A DNA stretch of 64,000 bases from a virus. The notes beneath the pieces were generated by a model, which made no database searches, was not told the origin of the DNA, and worked only from the letters and a program-made list of their open reading frames with translations. The number at the start of each line of letters is the position of its first letter. Position 1 is the first letter of the stretch. The stretch lies in IMG/VR virus record IMGVR_UViG_3300009177_000029, positions 1 to 64,000 of that record. One strand, written 5' to 3'. Positions 103 through 8,064 of this stretch are shown one piece after another. The position numbers were made by a program, and so were the translations under genes.

Positions 103-624
103 ATGGACAATAACACACTACGCGTAATGACTTCTTCGAAGAACGAGCACTGGTGCACGCCTAACGTCATTCTTCAACCCATGAGACAGCACCTTGGTCC
201 TATTCTTTTGGACCCGTGCTCAAATCCAGGCAGCATCGTTCAAGCAGCTAGGTCTTTCTGCGGACCTATTGCTGGCGACTTGGACGGCCTTGCTGAGACG
301 TGGCAGTACAACGGCCTGGTGTATGTGAACCCGCCGTATGGTCGCAAGATCAAGCCGTGGATCAAGAAGTGTTCCGACGAAGGTGCGCTCGCCAAGAAAG
401 CTCAGAATGGAACTGAGATTGTTCTTCTGGGTCCGGCGCGTACAGATACGAAGTGGTTCCAGCGCATTATACTACCGACTGCGGACGCTGTGATTCTTTG
501 GGAAGGTCGCCTCAAGTTCGAAGGCGCCAAGGACCCGGCAGTATTCCCGTCGTTCCTCGCGTATTGGGGTCATCGTCCTACGAAGTTCAAGGTAGCGTTT
601 GTTGGAAAGGGTTGGCCAATATGA
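103..624 (+). CDS. DNA N6-adenine methyltransferase, phage Dam family
   Basis: A 173-residue protein that should transfer a methyl group from S-adenosylmethionine to adenine in DNA. Seen: DPCS at residues 37-40, matching the AdoMet-pocket region, and the catalytic NPPYG at 76-80. The layout and length match the phage DNA N-6-adenine-methyltransferase family (Pfam Dam, PF05869). ATG directly follows the preceding TGA, and the stop overlaps the next ATG (ATGA). In phages such enzymes usually protect DNA from host restriction; that role here is inferred. The target sequence cannot be read from the gene. Confidence 0.88.
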   Translation: MDNNTLRVMTSSKNEHWCTPNVILQPMRQHLGPILLDPCSNPGSIVQAARSFCGPIAGDLDGLAETWQYNGLVYVNPPYGRKIKPWIKKCSDEGALAKKAQNGTEIVLLGPARTDTKWFQRIILPTADAVILWEGRLKFEGAKDPAVFPSFLAYWGHRPTKFKVAFVGKGWPI

Positions 625-902
625 TTTGGTTAGTGCCTGTCATCTACATCCTCGTGATGATCTGCACCTTCCTAGGGTTTGCCTGGTTTAGTGATAGCAA
701 CGAACCAGACGGTGGACATTTTCTGGGAAGTGTGTTTTGGCCAGTTACGCTACTGCTGGCGATTCCATTTCTGACGTGGGAATGGGTCTATAACGCCAGG
801 CAAGCATACAAGCGGACCAAAGAATACGAAGACAATCTTCGTATTGTCCGCGAGACAGAAGCGAAGATCGCAGCGGCCGAAGCTGGTGGGTACAGACCAT
901 GA
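621..902 (+). CDS. Small two-helix membrane protein
   Basis: 93 residues starting at the ATG that overlaps the methyltransferase stop. A longer in-frame reading from 453 would overlap that gene deeply and is rejected. Two hydrophobic segments are visible, about residues 1-22 (IWLVPVIYILVMICTFLGFAW) and 36-54, then a charged, probably cytoplasmic helical tail (RQAYKRTKEYEDNLR). No family recognised. It is followed by a second small membrane protein, suggesting a pair acting at the inner membrane. Confidence 0.7.
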   Translation: MIWLVPVIYILVMICTFLGFAWFSDSNEPDGGHFLGSVFWPVTLLLAIPFLTWEWVYNARQAYKRTKEYEDNLRIVRETEAKIAAAEAGGYRP

Positions 903-1060
903 GTCCCTGGCTCATCGCCTTCTGCATATACATGATGGTTGCTAGCATCACGTACGAAGCGATTGTGCGTGAGCAGGATTGGGTATTGTGCATTCTAGTA
1001 GCTCTTATCTGGCCAATCGTGCTGTTTCACCTCGTATATGACTATTTGATTGGAGAATAG
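899..1060 (+). CDS. 53-residue membrane protein
   Basis: A short gene with ATG at 899 overlapping the previous stop (ATGA) and ending in TAG at 1058-1060, two bases before the next ATG. The product begins MSPWLIAFCIYMMVAS and carries two hydrophobic stretches separated by a short polar loop (EAIVREQDW). The tight coupling and membrane character support a real gene despite its size. Function unknown; it may act with the preceding membrane protein. Confidence 0.65.
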   Translation: MSPWLIAFCIYMMVASITYEAIVREQDWVLCILVALIWPIVLFHLVYDYLIGE

Positions 1061-1062
1061 CC

Positions 1063-1260
1063 ATGGTCTTCGAATACTACTTCGTCATCCTGACCAAACA
1101 AGGTAAGTTGATTGACGTGTATGTGAAAGCTCCGTCTCCGGCTGAGGCGCTCGACAAGATCATTGACAGGTTCGATCTCGGTGGTAGTATCGCGGACTAC
1201 AAGTTCTGCATACGTCGAGAACTGTCATTGTTTCCTGAACGCTCAACCAACGAGACATGA
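1063..1260 (+). CDS. Small unknown protein
   Basis: 65 residues, MVFEYYFVILTKQGKLIDVYVKAPSP..., with a beta-rich N-terminal half resembling small phage accessory proteins that carry an 'APSPAEAL' turn. It lies between a membrane protein and a secreted protein, two bases after one and directly before the other (TGA then ATG). No family recognised. Confidence 0.65.
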   Translation: MVFEYYFVILTKQGKLIDVYVKAPSPAEALDKIIDRFDLGGSIADYKFCIRRELSLFPERSTNET

Positions 1261-1884
1261 ATGAGAAACCTACTACTCGCACTGTTCGTAATCGCCATCG
1301 TCCTAGTTCCCAACTGCGCACACGCGCAACACCAGCCTCGTGTTTCACCACACTTGATTCTGGCGAGGATGTGTGCACACGAAGCCAGCCTTCCGGTGCT
1401 AGTTGACGGCGAGTGGAGACAGACACGTCACCACGACCTTGCTTGGGGAGCAGACTGCTGGATTATTCACACGGTCATTTTGCGTGGAGCCCACAGGATT
1501 CAACAAGACCATCCTGAAATGTCGCTTCCACGCGCGTACGTAATCTCAGCACAGAACTACTCACATGGTCGTATCATTCATCCTCCTGCTACTGACGGTA
1601 ACCGTTGGGCCGCCGACCTACGTCCTGATGGCAGACCTCCGGTCGGTTGGCACGGCCTCCCGTGGTCGCATATGCGGGCCTCGTGGCTCCACGTCTACGA
1701 AGTCACGGACGCGATCGTCCGGACGCCTCTAGAAGCCCTTGACGGCGGTCTAACTCCGCTCCATTGTGATGGACGCGTGGATGATTGGGGCGGACGGATG
1801 GATAGAGAACATGCTGCGGCTATTGGTCTCATCGAACTTCACTGTGAAGGTAATCCGGTCAACTTCGCGTATCGAAGACCATGA
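1261..1884 (+). CDS. Secreted protein, possible cell-wall enzyme
   Basis: 207 residues with a clear cleavable signal: MRNLLLALFVIAIVLV followed by AHA-Q, so signal peptidase I should cut near residue 22. The mature part is rich in His, Trp and Cys (CAHEAS, ADCWIIH, DDWGGRMDREH) and contains an acidic/histidine pattern compatible with a small secreted hydrolase. The late GGRMD segment recalls cell-wall hydrolases. This is only resemblance; no diagnostic motif was identified. Export to the periplasm is well supported, and a lysis or wall-modifying role is inference. Confidence 0.6.
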   Translation: MRNLLLALFVIAIVLVPNCAHAQHQPRVSPHLILARMCAHEASLPVLVDGEWRQTRHHDLAWGADCWIIHTVILRGAHRIQQDHPEMSLPRAYVISAQNYSHGRIIHPPATDGNRWAADLRPDGRPPVGWHGLPWSHMRASWLHVYEVTDAIVRTPLEALDGGLTPLHCDGRVDDWGGRMDREHAAAIGLIELHCEGNPVNFAYRRP

Positions 1885-2207
1885 AACTTCCTCACGTAAG
1901 TGTACGGTTGCGGATGCACATACACGACGAGATTGTCGTAGACTTTGACCTTGACCCTGCGGAATGGGCGGACTACGGCACAGGTATGAAGCTATTGCAA
2001 GAACTAGTCAGACTGAATACAGTGGTATTTCATGATCGCGTACTAGGCCGGGTGTATGACCCAGAACGATTGCGAGCGGCAGTACAGGCAACGTTCATAC
2101 CTTTGATTGAGCGCGGAAAACTCTGGTGGGAAAACGGATACGCTTGCGTAGACGTAGAAAACCTTGAATCAATGATCTGTATACGGGAGCTAGCGAAAGA
2201 ACCATGA
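1881..2207 (+). CDS. Unknown protein, 108 residues
   Basis: Starts at ATG 1881 overlapping the previous stop and ends overlapping the NADAR gene (ATGA). Soluble, mixed alpha/beta composition with an acidic N-terminal strand pair (HIHDEIVVDFDLDPAEW) and an aromatic C-terminal part (LWWENGYACVDVENL). No family recognised. Its place directly before NADAR and SLOG makes it a candidate partner of those proteins. Confidence 0.65.
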   Translation: MKLPHVSVRLRMHIHDEIVVDFDLDPAEWADYGTGMKLLQELVRLNTVVFHDRVLGRVYDPERLRAAVQATFIPLIERGKLWWENGYACVDVENLESMICIRELAKEP

Positions 2208-2614
2208 TCAACTCATTCCGTGGCAAGAATCGATTTCTGTCCAACTTTTGGCCAGCACCAGTCACACTAGACGGCGTTGAGTATCCGTCCACTGAAAACG
2301 CGTACCAAGCCGCGAAGACACTGGACCTCGAATGCCGAAAGGTTTTCGAGACGTGTTCTTCGGGTGATGCCAAGAAGCTTGGCCGCCAGCTAACCGTACG
2401 CGATGATTGGAAGAACATCAGCCTTGGAATCATGTTGGACCTGAATCGACAGAAGTTCCAGGATGAAGAACTCAAGGCTAAGTTGAAGGCAACGGGCGAT
2501 CAAGAACTCGTTGAAGGCAACACCTGGGGAGACACCTTCTGGGGCGTGTGCAACGGGGTTGGTGAAAACCATCTTGGAAAGATTCTCATGCAAGTTCGGA
2601 AGGAAGTGTCATGA
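2204..2614 (+). CDS. NADAR-family (YbiA-like) N-glycosidase
   Basis: 136 residues covering a full NADAR domain. Seen: the N-terminal signature FRGKNRFLSNFWPAP, then YPSTENAYQAAK at residues 27-38 with the conserved Glu, and the C-terminal signature ELVEGNTWGDTFWGV followed by GENHLGKILMQVR. Established: NADAR/YbiA/RibX enzymes cleave N-glycosidic bonds of ADP-ribose-like or riboflavin-pathway substrates, and some NADAR proteins remove ADP-ribose from guanine in DNA, opposing DarT toxins. A phage copy could counter DarT-type defence. It is translationally coupled to both neighbours and lies one gene before a SLOG protein. Confidence 0.9.
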   Translation: MINSFRGKNRFLSNFWPAPVTLDGVEYPSTENAYQAAKTLDLECRKVFETCSSGDAKKLGRQLTVRDDWKNISLGIMLDLNRQKFQDEELKAKLKATGDQELVEGNTWGDTFWGVCNGVGENHLGKILMQVRKEVS

Positions 2615-2973
2615 CTACGCCAGAACTAGTTGTTCGCTATGAGCAGACCTACTCTGGAAGAAAGTTGCTGGGAGAGCACAATCTCTACGAAGAAGGCACC
2701 TGGCAAATCTACGGAGAAGACCCGAACTGTGACCTCGGTGGTCCGCATCACGAGCCAAACCTGGGCTTGCTCGAAGGAAAGCTTCGTGACGTGATCGAAG
2801 TCGCTGTAAACCTACCGGGCTTTTGGGCCTGGGGTGGCGGTGGACGCATCGTGAAGTATGCTGCACCCGTAGTGCGCAAAGTTGATTCGAACACGATGGC
2901 AAAGCGTGCCGCTGCTGAGAAGCGAATCACAGAACTAGAAGCGGAACTCAAGCGTTTGAAGGAACAGCTATGA
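2611..2973 (+). CDS. Unknown protein with C-terminal coiled coil
   Basis: 120 residues between the NADAR and SLOG genes, overlapping both by 4 bases. The N-terminal 80 residues are Gly/Trp-rich (LPGFWAWGGGGR); residues about 92-120 (AKRAAAEKRITELEAEL...) form a heptad-like coiled coil that could mediate oligomerisation. No family recognised. Co-translation with NADAR and SLOG suggests a shared complex or pathway, which is inference. Confidence 0.68.
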   Translation: MTTPELVVRYEQTYSGRKLLGEHNLYEEGTWQIYGEDPNCDLGGPHHEPNLGLLEGKLRDVIEVAVNLPGFWAWGGGGRIVKYAAPVVRKVDSNTMAKRAAAEKRITELEAELKRLKEQL

Positions 2974-3317
2974 AGGTCATCATTGCCGGCTCACGCACGT
3001 TGACGAACTACCAGACAGTGTTAGATGCTATCGCAGCTTCTGGGTTCTTCATTTCGCAAGTAGTATCTGGCGGTGCCAGTGGTGTAGACCAACTTGGTGA
3101 GCTATACGCTTTCGAGCAGGATCTATCACTCAAAGTGTTTCCTGCCAAGTGGAGCCTCTATGGCAAGGGCGCTGGACCTATCCGCAATCAAGAAATGGCT
3201 GACTATGCCGAAGCGTTGATTGCTGTGTGGGATGGTGAGAGCACGGGTACGAAGGACATGATTGCACGGGCACGAGACAAGGGTCTAGAGGTGTACGTCC
3301 ATGTTGTCTCGACGTGA
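2970..3317 (+). CDS. SLOG-domain nucleotide-binding protein (YspA/cpYpsA-like)
   Basis: 115 residues forming a minimal SLOG Rossmann-like domain. Seen: MKVIIAGSRTL at the first strand, GGASGVD at 34-40, KGAGPIRNQEM at 66-76 and WDGESTGTKDMI towards the end. These are the hallmark positions of the DprA/LOG-related family annotated YspA or cpYpsA. SLOG domains bind nucleotide-derived ligands, and in several defence systems they sense NAD-derived or cyclic-nucleotide signals. A free-standing phage copy next to NADAR suggests handling of ADP-ribose-type metabolites. Substrate unknown. Confidence 0.87.
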   Translation: MKVIIAGSRTLTNYQTVLDAIAASGFFISQVVSGGASGVDQLGELYAFEQDLSLKVFPAKWSLYGKGAGPIRNQEMADYAEALIAVWDGESTGTKDMIARARDKGLEVYVHVVST

Positions 3318-3816
3318 AGCTGCTGAGAAGGCACAAGCTGCGGAACGTGAAGCGAACGACCAAGGGTTGATTCGTACGGTCCATCTGCTTACCTTCAAAG
3401 AGCATTTCGACCGCTTGGTACGAATCACCAACCAGAAGTATCATACTGAGTTTGGCAACTTCAAGACACACTGCATCAGCGTGCCGAACGCAGAAGCTAT
3501 TCTACGAGACGAAGATGTAAACAACTCGTATTGTAGGTCGGCACCATTCATGCCTGTGTGGGTTCTTCAACTCATTCTCATTGAACGAGAGTGGCGCAAG
3601 AATCCGTTCAAGCGTGCGGAAGATCACGACGACATAGTGGCGGCCTTCCATCAAGGGTTGCAGGGTAACCTAGATGCGGTAGAGTCCTTCTTCGGAATCT
3701 ACGATCTCAATCGCCAGTCTGACAAAGAACTCAACAGGTCTCCTGTCCAGGCAGACAATAGCGGTTGGATGACCATCAACGAAACCCGCGCAGCCAACGG
3801 AATACAACCACTATGA
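3301..3816 (+). CDS. Unknown protein related to the gene at the left edge
   Basis: 171 residues, starting at ATG 3301 inside the end of the SLOG gene (17-base overlap). The N-terminus is basic and helical (LSRREAAEKAQAAEREAND). The region AAFHQGLQGNLDAVESFFG near residue 121 matches the partial protein at 1-102. The last residues, MTINETRAANGIQPL, look like the C-terminal motif of many phage portal proteins, but the rest is not a portal. Function unknown. Confidence 0.7.
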   Translation: MLSRREAAEKAQAAEREANDQGLIRTVHLLTFKEHFDRLVRITNQKYHTEFGNFKTHCISVPNAEAILRDEDVNNSYCRSAPFMPVWVLQLILIEREWRKNPFKRAEDHDDIVAAFHQGLQGNLDAVESFFGIYDLNRQSDKELNRSPVQADNSGWMTINETRAANGIQPL

Positions 3817-5012
3817 ACATCCCTCAGAACGTCAAAGATATCGTGCAGTGTCTCCACAACAATGGATACGAAGCATTCATTGTTGGCGGCTGCGTGCGTG
3901 ACTTGCTTCTAGGCAAGACGCCAAACGATTGGGATATTACGACGTCGGCAACGCCACACCAGGTGATGGGTCTGTTCATGCGATCTATTCCAACCGGCAT
4001 CGACCACGGAACAGTCACAGTGCTCATGAAGGGTGAGCACTACGAAGTGACTACCTTCCGCGGAGAGGGTGCATACTCGGACGGTAGACGTCCGGATTCT
4101 GTGCGCTTTGGTGTGCCACTCCAAGAGGACTTGGCTCGCCGAGACTTCACGATCAACGCCATCGCCATGAACCCAATCACAGGCGAAACGTATGACCCGT
4201 TCAATGGCACCGAGGATCTCAACAAGCGAGTCGTACGCTGTGTCGGGAATCCACTAGAGAGGTTTGCTGAGGACGGCTTACGTGTCCTTCGCGCCGCACG
4301 GTTCTGCGCCGTGTTGGGCTTCTCATTGGATCCCAAGACTGAGGCGGCGATTCACTTCAACATCGAGACCTTCCAGAAGGTTTCTATGGAGCGAGTCTAT
4401 GCCGAGTGGCAGAAGCTGCTGACGAAGGCTGAGTATCCTTCGCGTGGTTTCGAGATCATGCAGCGCACTGGAATCCTTGAAGCTACCTGTCCTATGTTCG
4501 GCTTCGAACAGGCCAAGGAAAACTTCATGTACGCGATGGATGCCATTGACGAGCAGAGGCGCGATTTCGTGCTTCGACTTGCGTCACTCTTCCACTACGT
4601 GCGATTCACGCCTGTGCAGGTTGAGACGTGGATGCGCACATTCAAGGCTTCTAACGAAGTACGTACACGTGTCGTGCATCTACTCAACTGCTACAACCCA
4701 TGTGTCAACAACACGCCAGAAGGTTGGCGACGCTGGGCAAGCAAGGTCGGACGTGAGCACTTGGACGACGCGCTAGCACTCTACTGGACGCGTTCGACGG
4801 GAAAGGTTGTCCATGGAATCGTGGATAGTACACCCTTGTCCTTGAGCGAGCTTGCCATAAACGGCAACGACGTCCTGTCGATGGGCATCCAACCCAAGGA
4901 CGTCGGTAGATATCTTCGTGAAGCATTGGACAAGGTTCTTAGTGATCCTAGTCTTAATACTAAGGAAGACCTAACTATTCAGCGCTGTGGATTTGGTATC
5001 AACCAAACGTGA
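3813..5012 (+). CDS. cca: CCA-adding enzyme / tRNA nucleotidyltransferase
   Basis: 399 residues from ATG 3813, which overlaps the previous stop; the extra 16 in-frame codons upstream lie inside the previous gene and are not used. Seen: class II nucleotidyltransferase signature VGGCVRD at 24-30, the metal-binding DWD at 39-41, FTINAIAMN, DPFNGTEDL, and the RVLRAARFCAVLGF nucleotide-selection region, then an all-helical C-terminal body. The enzyme adds or repairs the 3' CCA of tRNA; a poly(A) polymerase activity is the alternative for this family. Together with the RNA ligase at 38067-38987 it could form a tRNA-repair toolkit. Confidence 0.9.
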   Translation: MNIPQNVKDIVQCLHNNGYEAFIVGGCVRDLLLGKTPNDWDITTSATPHQVMGLFMRSIPTGIDHGTVTVLMKGEHYEVTTFRGEGAYSDGRRPDSVRFGVPLQEDLARRDFTINAIAMNPITGETYDPFNGTEDLNKRVVRCVGNPLERFAEDGLRVLRAARFCAVLGFSLDPKTEAAIHFNIETFQKVSMERVYAEWQKLLTKAEYPSRGFEIMQRTGILEATCPMFGFEQAKENFMYAMDAIDEQRRDFVLRLASLFHYVRFTPVQVETWMRTFKASNEVRTRVVHLLNCYNPCVNNTPEGWRRWASKVGREHLDDALALYWTRSTGKVVHGIVDSTPLSLSELAINGNDVLSMGIQPKDVGRYLREALDKVLSDPSLNTKEDLTIQRCGFGINQT

Positions 5013-6795
5013 AGATGACACCGCGACGCATGCGTTCAAGCGCAATGTTGCAGTAGTTCCACGAGTGAGCAAAGTGCGGGTCGCCACCTGAGTAAATCCA
5101 CTCATGGCGACCTTCACCCGTTTCCTCGTTCGTCACGTGGAAGTGCTTCACTAGACGCATGTACATGCTTTGGGCACGACGCATCACAGCTTCGGGCTCC
5201 AACAAGCGGGTCTTCTCGTTGTAGCAGATCTGCACCAAGCGGTCGGGATCTGGGCAAATCACTTCCTGCTTAGCCCAAGCACCGAGAGCGATGTCGAGCG
5301 ACAGGTAGCGACTAAGTGCACAGTAATATTTGAACTTGAGGTGAGGACCAGCCTTCTTGATGGTGATCTTCGTCTTTGGCTTGTCGGACCACAATACAGG
5401 GTCCTTGCCTTCCGAGGAGTAGAACGCAGCGAATGCACGTCCTGGGAACTCCTGACAGAACTCAAGCACCATGTCGTAGTTCGGCATTGAGTCGATGACG
5501 CACAACTGCACCTTGAACTCTTTCATGAGTTCACGCAAACGCTTGAACGGTGTGACCTTCTTGCCAGCTTCCATATACGCAGGGTTGTCTGCTTCGATAA
5601 TCTCTACATGTCGGATTCTCTTCCTTGAGTCCTTCATGTCAGCGATCGTCACGTATAGGTAGCCGCCTCCTTGATCTACACCCATCGCGCAACCAGAAGC
5701 CTTTCCAGGCTGTGCCCATTCGAGCATCGGGTCGACGCACTGGTCAAGCTGCGCCTTGGTAACGCCACGGTTCTGTTCGTCAATCCACGGCAAGCCAAGT
5801 GACGCGTTCATGAACTCGGCCTTGTTGGTCGTACGGTTGTACGTGTTCCACAAGTCCTTAAGAGGAACATACTTGGAGTTTGCACAGAGAGCGGACACAC
5901 CAAAGGTCGTGTAGTCAGCGCCAGGATTGTGCGCAACGTAACGGCCGTTCTGGGCGTCATGGATGACGTACTTGCACTTTGGGCAACGCAAGTAGAGCTT
6001 GCCACGCTTCTTGTCGTCCACAACACAGTCAGGAAAGCTACGAGCGAGGTCACAGCCATCAGGGCAGCCGCACTTGCTCATCCAAATGTGTTGTGTACCC
6101 ATCTGGAAACGTGCGTCAATGTCAGCGTCCGGGAGACCGCACGTTGACATGAAGATCTTCTGCTTGTATGGACTGTGCTGGATACGATACTGCGCCTGAT
6201 CGATTTCTGCGGGTGAGCATAGACGCACCTCGTCGAACGCGATGAAATCGAGAGGCACGGAGTCCTTGCTTGCAACACCGCCAAGGTGGAACAAGTAGAA
6301 GGAACTCTTACCGATCTTACGCAAGCCGAGCTTGTCGGTATGGTCGATTGTGCCGTTCAGCTCTGCAATCGAATCTAGGATTGGTGTGAGACGGTCCTTA
6401 GACAAGTTCTCAACACCTTCCTTCGTTGGGAAGTACAAACCTCCCTTACGCCCCTGGTGCGTGTGCAGCCAGTGGATCATACGCAACAACATGTACGTAG
6501 TAGCGCCGAGCTGAGCTGCCTTGCGCCAAACGATTTGCAAATCGTCACACATGTAGATGGGCAGCAGATAGCGGTGAGAATCGAAGTCGATTCTGTTACC
6601 ATCGATTTCTACGTTGGAAGTCTGTGTCCAGAGCGTGAAGCTGTCATTGCTTAGATGCGTCAAGTCATCCAGCGTGATGTCCTCTGGCTTGATCTTCTTC
6701 GGCAGGCGTACAATGTGTGGAAATCCGCCTACGGGTGCAGCATGTGCTGCATCCCAATCTGGATCTGGTGGCAGTGTCGTATAGTCAACACTCAT
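4999..6795 (-). CDS. terL: Terminase large subunit (GpA-like)
   Basis: 598 residues; the DNA-packaging motor that cuts concatemeric DNA and pumps it into the prohead. Seen: ATPase adenine/Walker A region KAAQLGATTYML at 92-103, Walker B LDFIAFDEV at 182-190 and coupling motif KIFMSTC near 213. A zinc-binding insert (CGCPDGC, CPKC) covers about 242-274. The nuclease domain has GVDQGGG (Asp374), VIDSMPN (Asp435) and a terminal GGDPHFAHSW block. This arrangement fits GpA-type TerL. The 3' end overlaps the convergent CCA gene by 14 bases, leaving no room for a terminator. No clear small subunit is adjacent; the ParB-like gene upstream is the best candidate partner. Confidence 0.93.
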   Translation of the reverse strand: MSVDYTTLPPDPDWDAAHAAPVGGFPHIVRLPKKIKPEDITLDDLTHLSNDSFTLWTQTSNVEIDGNRIDFDSHRYLLPIYMCDDLQIVWRKAAQLGATTYMLLRMIHWLHTHQGRKGGLYFPTKEGVENLSKDRLTPILDSIAELNGTIDHTDKLGLRKIGKSSFYLFHLGGVASKDSVPLDFIAFDEVRLCSPAEIDQAQYRIQHSPYKQKIFMSTCGLPDADIDARFQMGTQHIWMSKCGCPDGCDLARSFPDCVVDDKKRGKLYLRCPKCKYVIHDAQNGRYVAHNPGADYTTFGVSALCANSKYVPLKDLWNTYNRTTNKAEFMNASLGLPWIDEQNRGVTKAQLDQCVDPMLEWAQPGKASGCAMGVDQGGGYLYVTIADMKDSRKRIRHVEIIEADNPAYMEAGKKVTPFKRLRELMKEFKVQLCVIDSMPNYDMVLEFCQEFPGRAFAAFYSSEGKDPVLWSDKPKTKITIKKAGPHLKFKYYCALSRYLSLDIALGAWAKQEVICPDPDRLVQICYNEKTRLLEPEAVMRRAQSMYMRLVKHFHVTNEETGEGRHEWIYSGGDPHFAHSWNYCNIALERMRRGVIFTFG

Positions 6796-6962
6796 CTACG
6801 AACCTCAGCCAATGATTCCACAGAGAAGCGACACGTGTGGTTGCCTACACGTACTTCGACCTCTTGTGTCTCAGGGAAGAGGCAAATCACTTGGTGATAC
6901 GCCTTCTTACGAGTCACACGAACTAGATCACCGAGTTGGATTACGTCAAAACGTACGCTCAT
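6792..6962 (-). CDS. Small unknown protein upstream of terL
   Basis: 56 residues from ATG at 6962, chosen because GGAGG lies just upstream; the longer reading starts at a TTG within that ribosome site. The product (MSVRFDVIQLGDLVRVTRKKAYHQ...) is beta-rich, of SH3-like or KOW-like appearance with a GDLVRV strand, so nucleic-acid or protein binding is possible. It overlaps both neighbours by four bases, so it is translated together with TerL. Confidence 0.65.
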   Translation of the reverse strand: MSVRFDVIQLGDLVRVTRKKAYHQVICLFPETQEVEVRVGNHTCRFSVESLAEVRR

Positions 6963-7204
6963 ACTTGCCTCCAAAGAACCTCACTCTTGGCATAGATTGC
7001 TTCTACAATACCGTCGATGACACGAAGGTAGTAGCACTCATCTGTGCGATTTGATGGAATCTTGAGTTGCTTGATAGGAATCTCGTCCCAGGTTGCCAGC
7101 TTCTTGACCACTGGAACGAAGCCATGCAACTCCATGAAGTCGAGGACAGCAAAGAGTTTGTCGTTCATTGCCTTGAGTTCCTCTGCGGTCACCTCTGTGG
7201 TCAT
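6959..7204 (-). CDS. Unknown protein, 81 residues
   Basis: Lies between the ParB-like gene and the small protein before TerL, with ATGA overlaps on both sides. Begins MTTEVTAEELKAMNDKLFAVLDFME, a helical N-terminus, followed by an alpha/beta region. No family recognised. Its position raises the possibility of a packaging accessory or small-terminase role, without sequence proof. Confidence 0.65.
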   Translation of the reverse strand: MTTEVTAEELKAMNDKLFAVLDFMELHGFVPVVKKLATWDEIPIKQLKIPSNRTDECYYLRVIDGIVEAIYAKSEVLWRQV

Positions 7205-8064
7205 TCGTCCACCCTCAGTTCTGGATTGGTGTCGCCTGCAATGGACCCTGCGTTAATCACAGGCTTCTTGTCAGTGTCACCCTTGAAGAATCCGGTGTGG
7301 TGGATAGCGATCTGTAGCAAGCCACCGAGTGCTGTGTTCACATCCATACCATCTGCTACACACTTGGTAGTGATAGCATCGATAGACTTCTTGAGAGCTG
7401 GCGTCATCTGAATGAAGACGTGATTACGTCCACCAAGTGGGAACACCATGAAAGAGTTTGGCACGGTCTTGCCATAGCGCTCAAACAAGACGCTGATGAT
7501 GGTGCCAAGGTCGTCGATCATCTTGACCTGGCTTACCTGTTGCTGAGAAGCCACAGCCGAGGCGATGGAGCGCTCTCTTTGCTTCTCTTGTTTGTAGAAG
7601 TTGGAGAATGCTTCGCTATCTTCGAAACCCATGCGTTCCATGATGATGTCGAGACCAAGCTGGTGCTCTGCGGTCAAACGATTGATCTCTTCGGTGAAGA
7701 GCGTACGGTCAATCTCACCGCGAACCAAGTTACGACGCACGAGTTGGATGCGGCTCTCTACTTCGTCCCAATCGTCACGAATGACACATGGGAACTCTTC
7801 CATGCCTGCGGCCTTGCCTGCTCGACGGCGGTGGTTACCGGACACGATGAAGTAGCCGGGTGTTTCGTCACGACGTGGAACGATGATGAGAGGCTCGTCG
7901 AAACCATGTGCCATGATGCTGTCAATCAGCTCTTGGTGCGTGTGCTTCGACTGCTTGTTCGTATTGTTTGGATGGTCGAACAACAACTCATCACGAACAC
8001 GAACAATCTCGTGGATCTTTGGTGCTGCCTTTGCAGCGGGTTCGATAACCTTCTTCTTGGCCAT
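7201..8064 (-). CDS. ParB-like nuclease/CTPase-domain protein
   Basis: 287 residues. The N-terminal half is a ParB/sulfiredoxin-like domain: helix TNKQSKHTHQELIDSI, then PLIIVPRRDETPGYFIVSGNHRRRAGKAAG with the conserved G-N-H-R-R-R at 76-81, and FPCVIRDDWDEVE. The C-terminal half is helical and unknown. Phages often carry ParB-like proteins next to the terminase, where they may recognise DNA for packaging, act as nucleases or modify host factors. Which applies here cannot be decided from sequence. Confidence 0.85.
   Translation of the reverse strand: MAKKKVIEPAAKAAPKIHEIVRVRDELLFDHPNNTNKQSKHTHQELIDSIMAHGFDEPLIIVPRRDETPGYFIVSGNHRRRAGKAAGMEEFPCVIRDDWDEVESRIQLVRRNLVRGEIDRTLFTEEINRLTAEHQLGLDIIMERMGFEDSEAFSNFYKQEKQRERSIASAVASQQQVSQVKMIDDLGTIISVLFERYGKTVPNSFMVFPLGGRNHVFIQMTPALKKSIDAITTKCVADGMDVNTALGGLLQIAIHHTGFFKGDTDKKPVINAGSIAGDTNPELRVDE

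Follow-up and report, generated by a model that had tools for sequence, protein, structure and literature searches.

A detachable NADAR–SLOG block in a large phage, with an orphan domain whose relatives often adjoin NAD+ salvage genes

Many bacterial antiviral defences depend centrally on the depletion of NAD+ and on ADP-ribose signals. Phages encode enzymes that resynthesise NAD+ or eliminate such signals. The closest described counterparts of the locus considered here are the ADPr-processing phage neighbourhoods of SLOG, NADAR and Macro domains (Iyer et al. 2022, PMC9503650); in that survey, phage NADAR and SLOG proteins are predicted to act mainly on soluble ADP-ribose derivatives. A second counterpart is phage NAD+ salvage, in which NadV is accompanied by NadM or NadR (PMC9503650, and compared with NARP1 in PMC12774641). 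A third is the phage cADPR glycosidase RyDEP, encoded next to NARP1, which turns a defence signal into a substrate for NAD+ resynthesis (preprint PMC13232231).

Like the neighbourhoods of Iyer et al., the present locus places a stand-alone NADAR and a YspA-type SLOG in one operon of a large phage with probable NAD+ salvage, and here too action on soluble ADP-ribose derivatives would be predicted. It differs in containing a middle protein (MID) that is not described in the accessible portion of that survey, in being detachable, and in that a search of the record for a Macro domain gave no match. Like the salvage sets, it is accompanied in its phage by NadV and a nearby NMNAT-like gene, and homologues of MID lie elsewhere between or beside NadM and NadV; unlike them, it holds its MID within the NADAR–SLOG block rather than by NadV, and the NMNAT-like protein is a weak match and not a NadM–Nudix protein. 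With RyDEP the likeness is one of logic and an analogy only, the fold of that enzyme being an RyR domain that differs from the window proteins (PMC13232231). Both NADAR and SLOG belong to established families, and phage pairings of the two were already published in 2022 (PMC9503650). What is new is the arrangement of MID with NADAR and SLOG and the association of MID with NadM and NadV, and the MID family is the most promising part of the locus. Neither the arrangement nor the association was found in the literature searched, which is weak evidence, most subscription journals lying outside the search.

The window, the 64,000-nucleotide stretch that was analysed, covers positions 1 to 64,000 of a viral record of 169,063 nt. 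An exact direct repeat of 123 nt is common to both ends of the record, and the map is therefore very likely circular. The source virus is a large uncultured phage in which the block occupies a variable locus by the terminase gene. From the Dam-type methyltransferase to the end of the tRNA nucleotidyltransferase, the ORFs follow one another on the same strand with little or no spacing (Table 1). The GC content of the block shows no deviation that stands out.

Table 1. Features at the NADAR–SLOG locus (positions in the window; aa, amino acids)
Feature	Positions	Strand	Remarks
Dam-type N6-adenine methyltransferase	103-624	+	Pfam Dam E=4e-14; outside the block
65-aa ORF, upstream block edge	1063-1260	+	56% identical in relative L299
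First block ORF	1261-1884	+	N-terminus resembles a signal peptide or a membrane segment; unmatched in Pfam and PHROG
108-aa ORF	1881-2207	+	ATGA overlap with NADAR; no family match above chance
NADAR protein, 136 aa	2204-2614	+	YbiA class by alignment; without extensions
MID, 120 aa	2611-2973	+	Phage orphan domain (PHROG 33851)
SLOG protein, 115 aa	2970-3317	+	YspA/YAcAr type
171-aa ORF, downstream block edge	3301-3816	+	Homologue in L299 with 25% identity
CCA-type tRNA nucleotidyltransferase, 399 aa	3813-5012	+	Ends the chain; Pfam PolyA_pol 1.7e-39; PHROG 2244
TerL	6795 to 4999	opposite to the 103-5012 ORF chain	

A first-pass annotation of this DNA had described NADAR, a coiled-coil protein and SLOG as one operon, joined by ATGA overlaps and preceded by an adenine methyltransferase. 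Family matches (Pfam, PHROG) establish all three as real genes. The overlaps are real as well, but they are not specific to the trio: across the genome, an overlap of exactly 4 nt is found in 44 of 162 same-strand neighbours, and within the chain ATGA overlaps also join the first block ORF to the 108-aa ORF, the latter to NADAR, and the 171-aa ORF to the tRNA nucleotidyltransferase, up to which the chain continues past the trio. With 27% of the genome's same-strand neighbours arranged in this way, ATGA overlaps were discarded as a sign of special coupling. The Dam-type gene does lie upstream, but at a distance of about 1.6 kb and with five ORFs intervening.

The full NADAR domain seen in the first pass is well supported (Pfam NADAR E=2.6e-24, 86.7 bits against a cut-off of 35.1; PHROG 1017, E=4e-44). 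Residues were mapped by alignment to YbiA (2b3w) and to NADAR 8bau, with contacts as in PMC11543638. Positions that are catalytic or contact ADP-ribose are matched in this alignment by E31, K38, K58, R61, W69, E104, D110 and W113, and E31, K38, E104, D110 and W113 are conserved when columns are counted over 138 aligned rows. The conserved E/K/W/D pocket and the Pfam score above cut-off together mark the protein as a member of the superfamily. Residue 73 is the exception: it is Ser here and K or R in 126 of the 133 aligned relatives that have a residue there, and Ser73 is otherwise found only in three loci (L006 and the pair L035/L037). Aligned by eye, this position corresponds to the pyrophosphate-contacting R93 of the Phytophthora NADAR (8bau) and is likely to be a pyrophosphate contact site. 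Apart from S73, the ADP-ribose pocket has not been lost, its catalytic residues and most of its ligand residues being kept.

The class-defining residue of NADAR proteins lies in the last strand and is Glu in the YbiA class, Asp in DarT1-linked members and His in gp30.3 (PMC11543638, PMC11125620). In the window protein it is E104, which aligns via 8bau with E125 of the P. nicotianae NADAR; Glu rather than Asp or His at this site assigns the protein, by alignment, to the YbiA class. With E. coli YbiA (PDB 2b3w) it shares the bare domain, the last-strand Glu and the same catalytic residues, and it differs from YbiA in S73 for K/R and in its phage operon context; T4 gp30.3 is the phage comparator for this class (PMC11125620).

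The counter-defence role proposed in the first pass had as one form the reversal of DNA ADP-ribosylation: by taking ADP-ribose off the guanines of phage DNA, NADAR would counteract a DarT-type toxin, and SLOG and MID would assist it. The in vitro activity of YbiA-class enzymes on guanosine-ADPr makes such a reaction possible; both E. coli YbiA and T4 gp30.3 hydrolyse this substrate (PMC11125620), and the window protein retains the catalytic and most of the ligand residues of NADARs that hydrolyse guanine-ADPr. The same two enzymes nevertheless fail to protect cells against DarT1 (PMC11125620). The window protein, moreover, has the Glu of the YbiA class and not the Asp of the DarT1-linked class, and its bare domain of 136 aa lacks the extension with a basic, probably DNA-binding face that DarT1-linked NADARs carry (PMC11543638). 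Ser at the by-eye equivalent of R93 also argues against this chemistry, as do the wide miss to the NCBI anti-phage NADAR model (43 vs 240 bits) and the lack of any DarT match in the record. We consider an anti-DarT function quite unlikely, and this half of the earlier proposal is not sustained. A DarT1-linked (DarG1) antitoxin was rejected as an identity for the protein, given an E104 that is not Asp, a bare 136-aa domain with no N-terminal extension and a record without DarT.

It has also to be asked whether the protein could be an ordinary riboflavin-pathway N-glycosidase of the RibX/YbiA type, acquired as an auxiliary metabolic gene. The NCBI riboflavin N-glycosidase model, TIGR02464, is passed at 76.1 vs 73.7 bits, although the model is broad and the margin, 2.4 bits, is small. 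In a quick tree of 122 NADARs, phage and bacterial members are mixed, E. coli YbiA sits among them, and the window protein falls in no well-supported clade; a riboflavin-type grouping is given by the NCBI model and not by the tree. The gene context argues against such a role: the scanned genes of the block and of the 89-169 kb arm include no riboflavin gene, and phage NADARs elsewhere adjoin NadV, NAD synthase, SLOG or CCA genes. A riboflavin-pathway role would therefore seem highly improbable.

The minimal SLOG domain was likewise correctly recognized (Pfam YAcAr, the YspA-type SLOG, E=9.1e-10; 38.7 vs 28.2 bits), and the Rossmannoid SLOG fold of its predicted model (pLDDT 97.6), taken with the Pfam score above cut-off, makes it a YspA/YAcAr-type member. 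The single sequence had no match in the PDB, and a profile found only a weak match to DprA. In a Foldseek search with the model, the leading PDB matches included ShosA, DprA and ThsA at probability 1.0, and the list also includes the SLOG domain of BcThsA with 3'cADPR (7uxs). The likeness to ThsA, DprA and ShosA is one of fold, in a predicted model; unlike those proteins, the window protein consists of one minimal domain (115 aa) and carries no effector, and identity in the structural alignments is about 15-21%. Its motifs are GSR, GGASGVD, RNQEM and WDGESTGTKDM. Catalytic SLOG proteins of the LOG type carry the motif PGGxGTxxE, in which the Glu is catalytic. The terminal Met of WDGESTGTKDM occupies what we take to be the position of this Glu, and Met rather than Glu is found there in 52 of 70 aligned SLOG rows. 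On this ground the protein was not assigned to the LOG-type catalytic members. The Met would fit a binding or sensing role and a different chemistry alike.

The ORF between NADAR and SLOG encodes a protein with relatives in many phages (PHROG 33851, E=5.3e-21). Residues 93-119 do form a long C-terminal helix, but the earlier label of coiled-coil protein misses the main part, because residues 12-91 form a conserved globular domain. The motif of this domain is W-x3-GED-x-N-x-D-x2-G-x-H...GxGG, and thirteen positions are invariant over 27 sequences (W31, G35-E36-D37, N39, D41, G44, H46, P49, G56, G75, G77 and G78). Membership of PHROG 33851 follows from the HMM match together with the invariant GED-N-D-G-H-P / GxGG core, which is common to phages of Rhizobium, Acinetobacter and Caulobacter and to 28 viral contig loci. 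Relatives on viral contigs were recovered by an alignment query but not by a single-sequence query, and a search of plasmids gave none. The AlphaFold2 model (pLDDT 94.0, pTM 0.70) has no match in the PDB at E<=0.001, and viral models yielded only two uncharacterised relatives; the sequence found nothing credible in the PDB, Pfam or NCBIfam.

The neighbours of MID give an indication of what it may do. They were sampled at 25 distinct MID loci, several of them on short contig fragments, within a limit of 6 kb, and 208 viral NADAR, SLOG and CCA loci served as controls. When neighbours were clustered, NadM (8 loci) and NadV (7) were, apart from MID, the largest recurring families; the next family, present at 5 loci, is encoded antisense over MID or beside it, and all others occur at 3 loci or fewer. 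Counted by HMM, NadM lies within 6 kb of MID at 9 of 25 loci, compared with 2 of 208 controls (Fisher p=2e-8), and NadV at 8 of 25, compared with 5 of 208 (Fisher p=5e-6); these p values are too optimistic because some linked MID loci align with each other at the DNA level (L153-L165, L140-L143 and L140-L146). In the linked loci NadM and NadV are usually directly adjacent to MID, and the NadM partner is an NMN adenylyltransferase with a Nudix domain.

The order is MID-NadM-NadV in two loci (L141, L160) and NadM-MID-NadV in three (L151, L153, L165). Shared ancestry accounts for the link in part. It is not a single recent copy, because gene orders vary and the nine MID-linked NadM proteins are only 34-73% identical (median 42%). 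The nearest relative of the window MID is that of L141, itself linked to NadM and NadV, and the two fall in a set of four with 95% SH-aLRT support and 76% identity over 70 aligned columns. Linked and unlinked members are intermixed in the MID tree, 16 of the 25 loci have no NadM nearby, and NadV is wholly absent from the three cultured phage records bearing MID that were tested. Another arrangement, L140:5932-10061, runs MID, a 61-aa ORF, NadM, a macrodomain-like protein, SLOG and NadV. The macrodomain-like protein matches an ADP-ribose 1''-phosphate phosphatase in the PDB (E=2.5e-6); the SLOG has no similarity to the window SLOG detectable by pairwise BLAST.

The first pass had cast the coiled-coil protein as a bridge; these gene neighbourhoods suggest that MID has a function of its own in the NAD pathway. 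We put forward tentatively, and with rather less than even confidence, that PHROG 33851 represents a part of phage NAD+ reconstitution not recognised before: an accessory protein of novel fold, bearing a conserved acidic/His motif, that may act on or bind an NMN, NAD+ or ADP-ribose intermediate and that is combined here with NADAR and SLOG. The family lends itself to study, since it occurs repeatedly by NadM and NadV, has a confident model with no known fold match, and offers obvious residues for mutation. If MID does take part in NAD+ reconstitution, it would be an extra component of an actively studied counter-defence pathway and a route to finding more.

Co-occurrence of the three genes in other phages, which the first pass had proposed as a check, was not observed: no MID lies within 6 kb at any of 80 NADAR or 48 SLOG loci, and only pairs recur. 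Seen from the MID side, 2 of 31 loci have a NADAR and 2 have a SLOG, in no case adjoining MID. The idea that the trio is a conserved system was accordingly abandoned, the whole NADAR-MID-SLOG set being met only in the window phage. In L043, L046 and the cultured phages AVIO78A and KP13-27, NADAR is immediately preceded by SLOG, and the two are fused as one protein in L117; at the level of genomes, SLOG is not significantly enriched in NADAR-bearing contigs (14/50, vs 7/50 CCA-bearing contigs; p=0.14). NADAR stands directly after NadV in L062, where NadV, NADAR and NAD synthase are separate adjacent genes, and in L067, where a single ORF right after NadV (5998-7176) is a fusion of NADAR and NAD synthase domains. 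SLOG also occurs within NAD-synthesis clusters (L123, L165, L067, L140). The NADAR, MID and SLOG families thus each recur, separately, next to phage NAD-synthesis genes.

The tRNA nucleotidyltransferase at the end of the chain raises another possibility, that NADAR, working with the CCA enzyme and other RNA-repair genes, removes ADP-ribose marks or by-products from RNA and above all from tRNA. Elsewhere a CCA enzyme comes immediately after NADAR in L026, in L053/L080 and in L059, where the genes overlap (at about 5850-7700 in each of these loci), and one lies within 6 kb at 7 of 80 NADAR loci; the window phage itself encodes 33 tRNA genes, HAD_SAK_2 and PNKP phosphatases, a Ro60-like protein and PTH2. 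The converse association is poor, however, with NADAR within 6 kb at only 1 of 80 CCA loci, and a joined search found no cultured phage with NADAR and CCA together. A CCA enzyme is to be expected anyway in a tRNA-rich phage, and RNA repair would leave MID and SLOG unexplained. This explanation appears to us unlikely.

A related viral contig, L299, whose terminase is 79% identical to that of the window phage, shows the block to be detachable. It keeps Dam (75% identical), the 65-aa ORF and the distant homologue of the 171-aa ORF, and the homologues of the two ORFs abut directly where the window has five genes. Because the block is absent from L299, positions 1261-3300 behave as accessory cargo, by gain here or by loss in L299. 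In L299 the same variable interval (reverse-complement 4365-6897) is home to one gene for SocA/Panacea and one for an R2K ATP-grasp protein, which suggests a site of exchange for conflict-related genes.

Cargo of this kind need not have a common function, and the ORFs might share no more than a variable accessory locus and a transcript. The lack of the whole block in L299, with other genes (SocA/Panacea, R2K ATP-grasp) in the interval, would be accounted for in this way, as would 4-nt overlaps that are routine in the genome and a trio that is not conserved elsewhere. Chance assembly fits less well with the separate recurrence of all three families in phage NAD-synthesis neighbourhoods, for which the MID background is low, and with the recurrent adjacency of SLOG to NADAR and of NadV to NADAR. 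We regard a set of unrelated genes as unlikely.

The window phage has NAD genes of its own. NadV is encoded at 151,362-152,768 of the record (NF006629, 584 bits vs 405), and close downstream an ORF at 153,295-154,464 has an NMNAT-like C-terminal domain that scores well below the cut-offs of NMNAT models. On the far side of the 123-nt terminal repeat, a Nudix gene at 167,890-168,348 precedes Dam. On the closed map the NADAR-MID-SLOG block is roughly 17-21 kb from NadV.

The counter-defence proposal survives in its broader form, the handling of NAD derivatives, which is favoured by the occurrence of the families beside NAD-synthesis genes, by the phage's own NadV and by the absence of the block from L299. 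The explanation that we prefer, at about an even chance of being correct, is an accessory NAD+/ADP-ribose-handling set that supports phage NAD+ salvage against NAD-consuming or signalling defences, with NADAR, MID and SLOG joined by one metabolic theme. We infer the substrates, the role of MID and the joint function of the three proteins as follows. The trio would process, bind or recycle NAD+ or ADP-ribose derivatives made or consumed by bacterial defences. NADAR would release ADP-ribose from a conjugate or derivative of it by hydrolysing an N-glycosidic bond, and SLOG would either bind a related nucleotide, thereby sensing or sequestering it, or cleave it. MID may be a small enzyme or a ligand-binding domain acting in concert with NMN/NAD+ synthesis, and NadV with the NMNAT-like protein (about 151-154 kb) would remake NAD+.

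Several smaller features of the phage deserve mention. The 33 predicted tRNA genes serve many amino acids and lie at 96.2-104.5 kb and 122.4 kb of the record (L087, L088, L089); the RNA-related domains encoded in addition to the CCA enzyme are a PNKP-like phosphatase, HAD_SAK_2, a Ro60-like protein and PTH2. Relatives of the CCA enzyme on viral contigs were missed by a single-sequence query and recovered by an alignment query, and a single-sequence query with the 171-aa ORF gave no relatives there. The N-terminus of the first block ORF is strongly hydrophobic and resembles a signal peptide, and an exported protein would be an odd companion for NADAR and SLOG. Inspection by eye reveals a C-terminal pattern, W..L followed by a D...S..GL.EL-like stretch, that is common to the 171-aa ORF and to the ORFs at 168345-168686 and 168683-169042 of the record; these three may be scattered paralogues within the locus.
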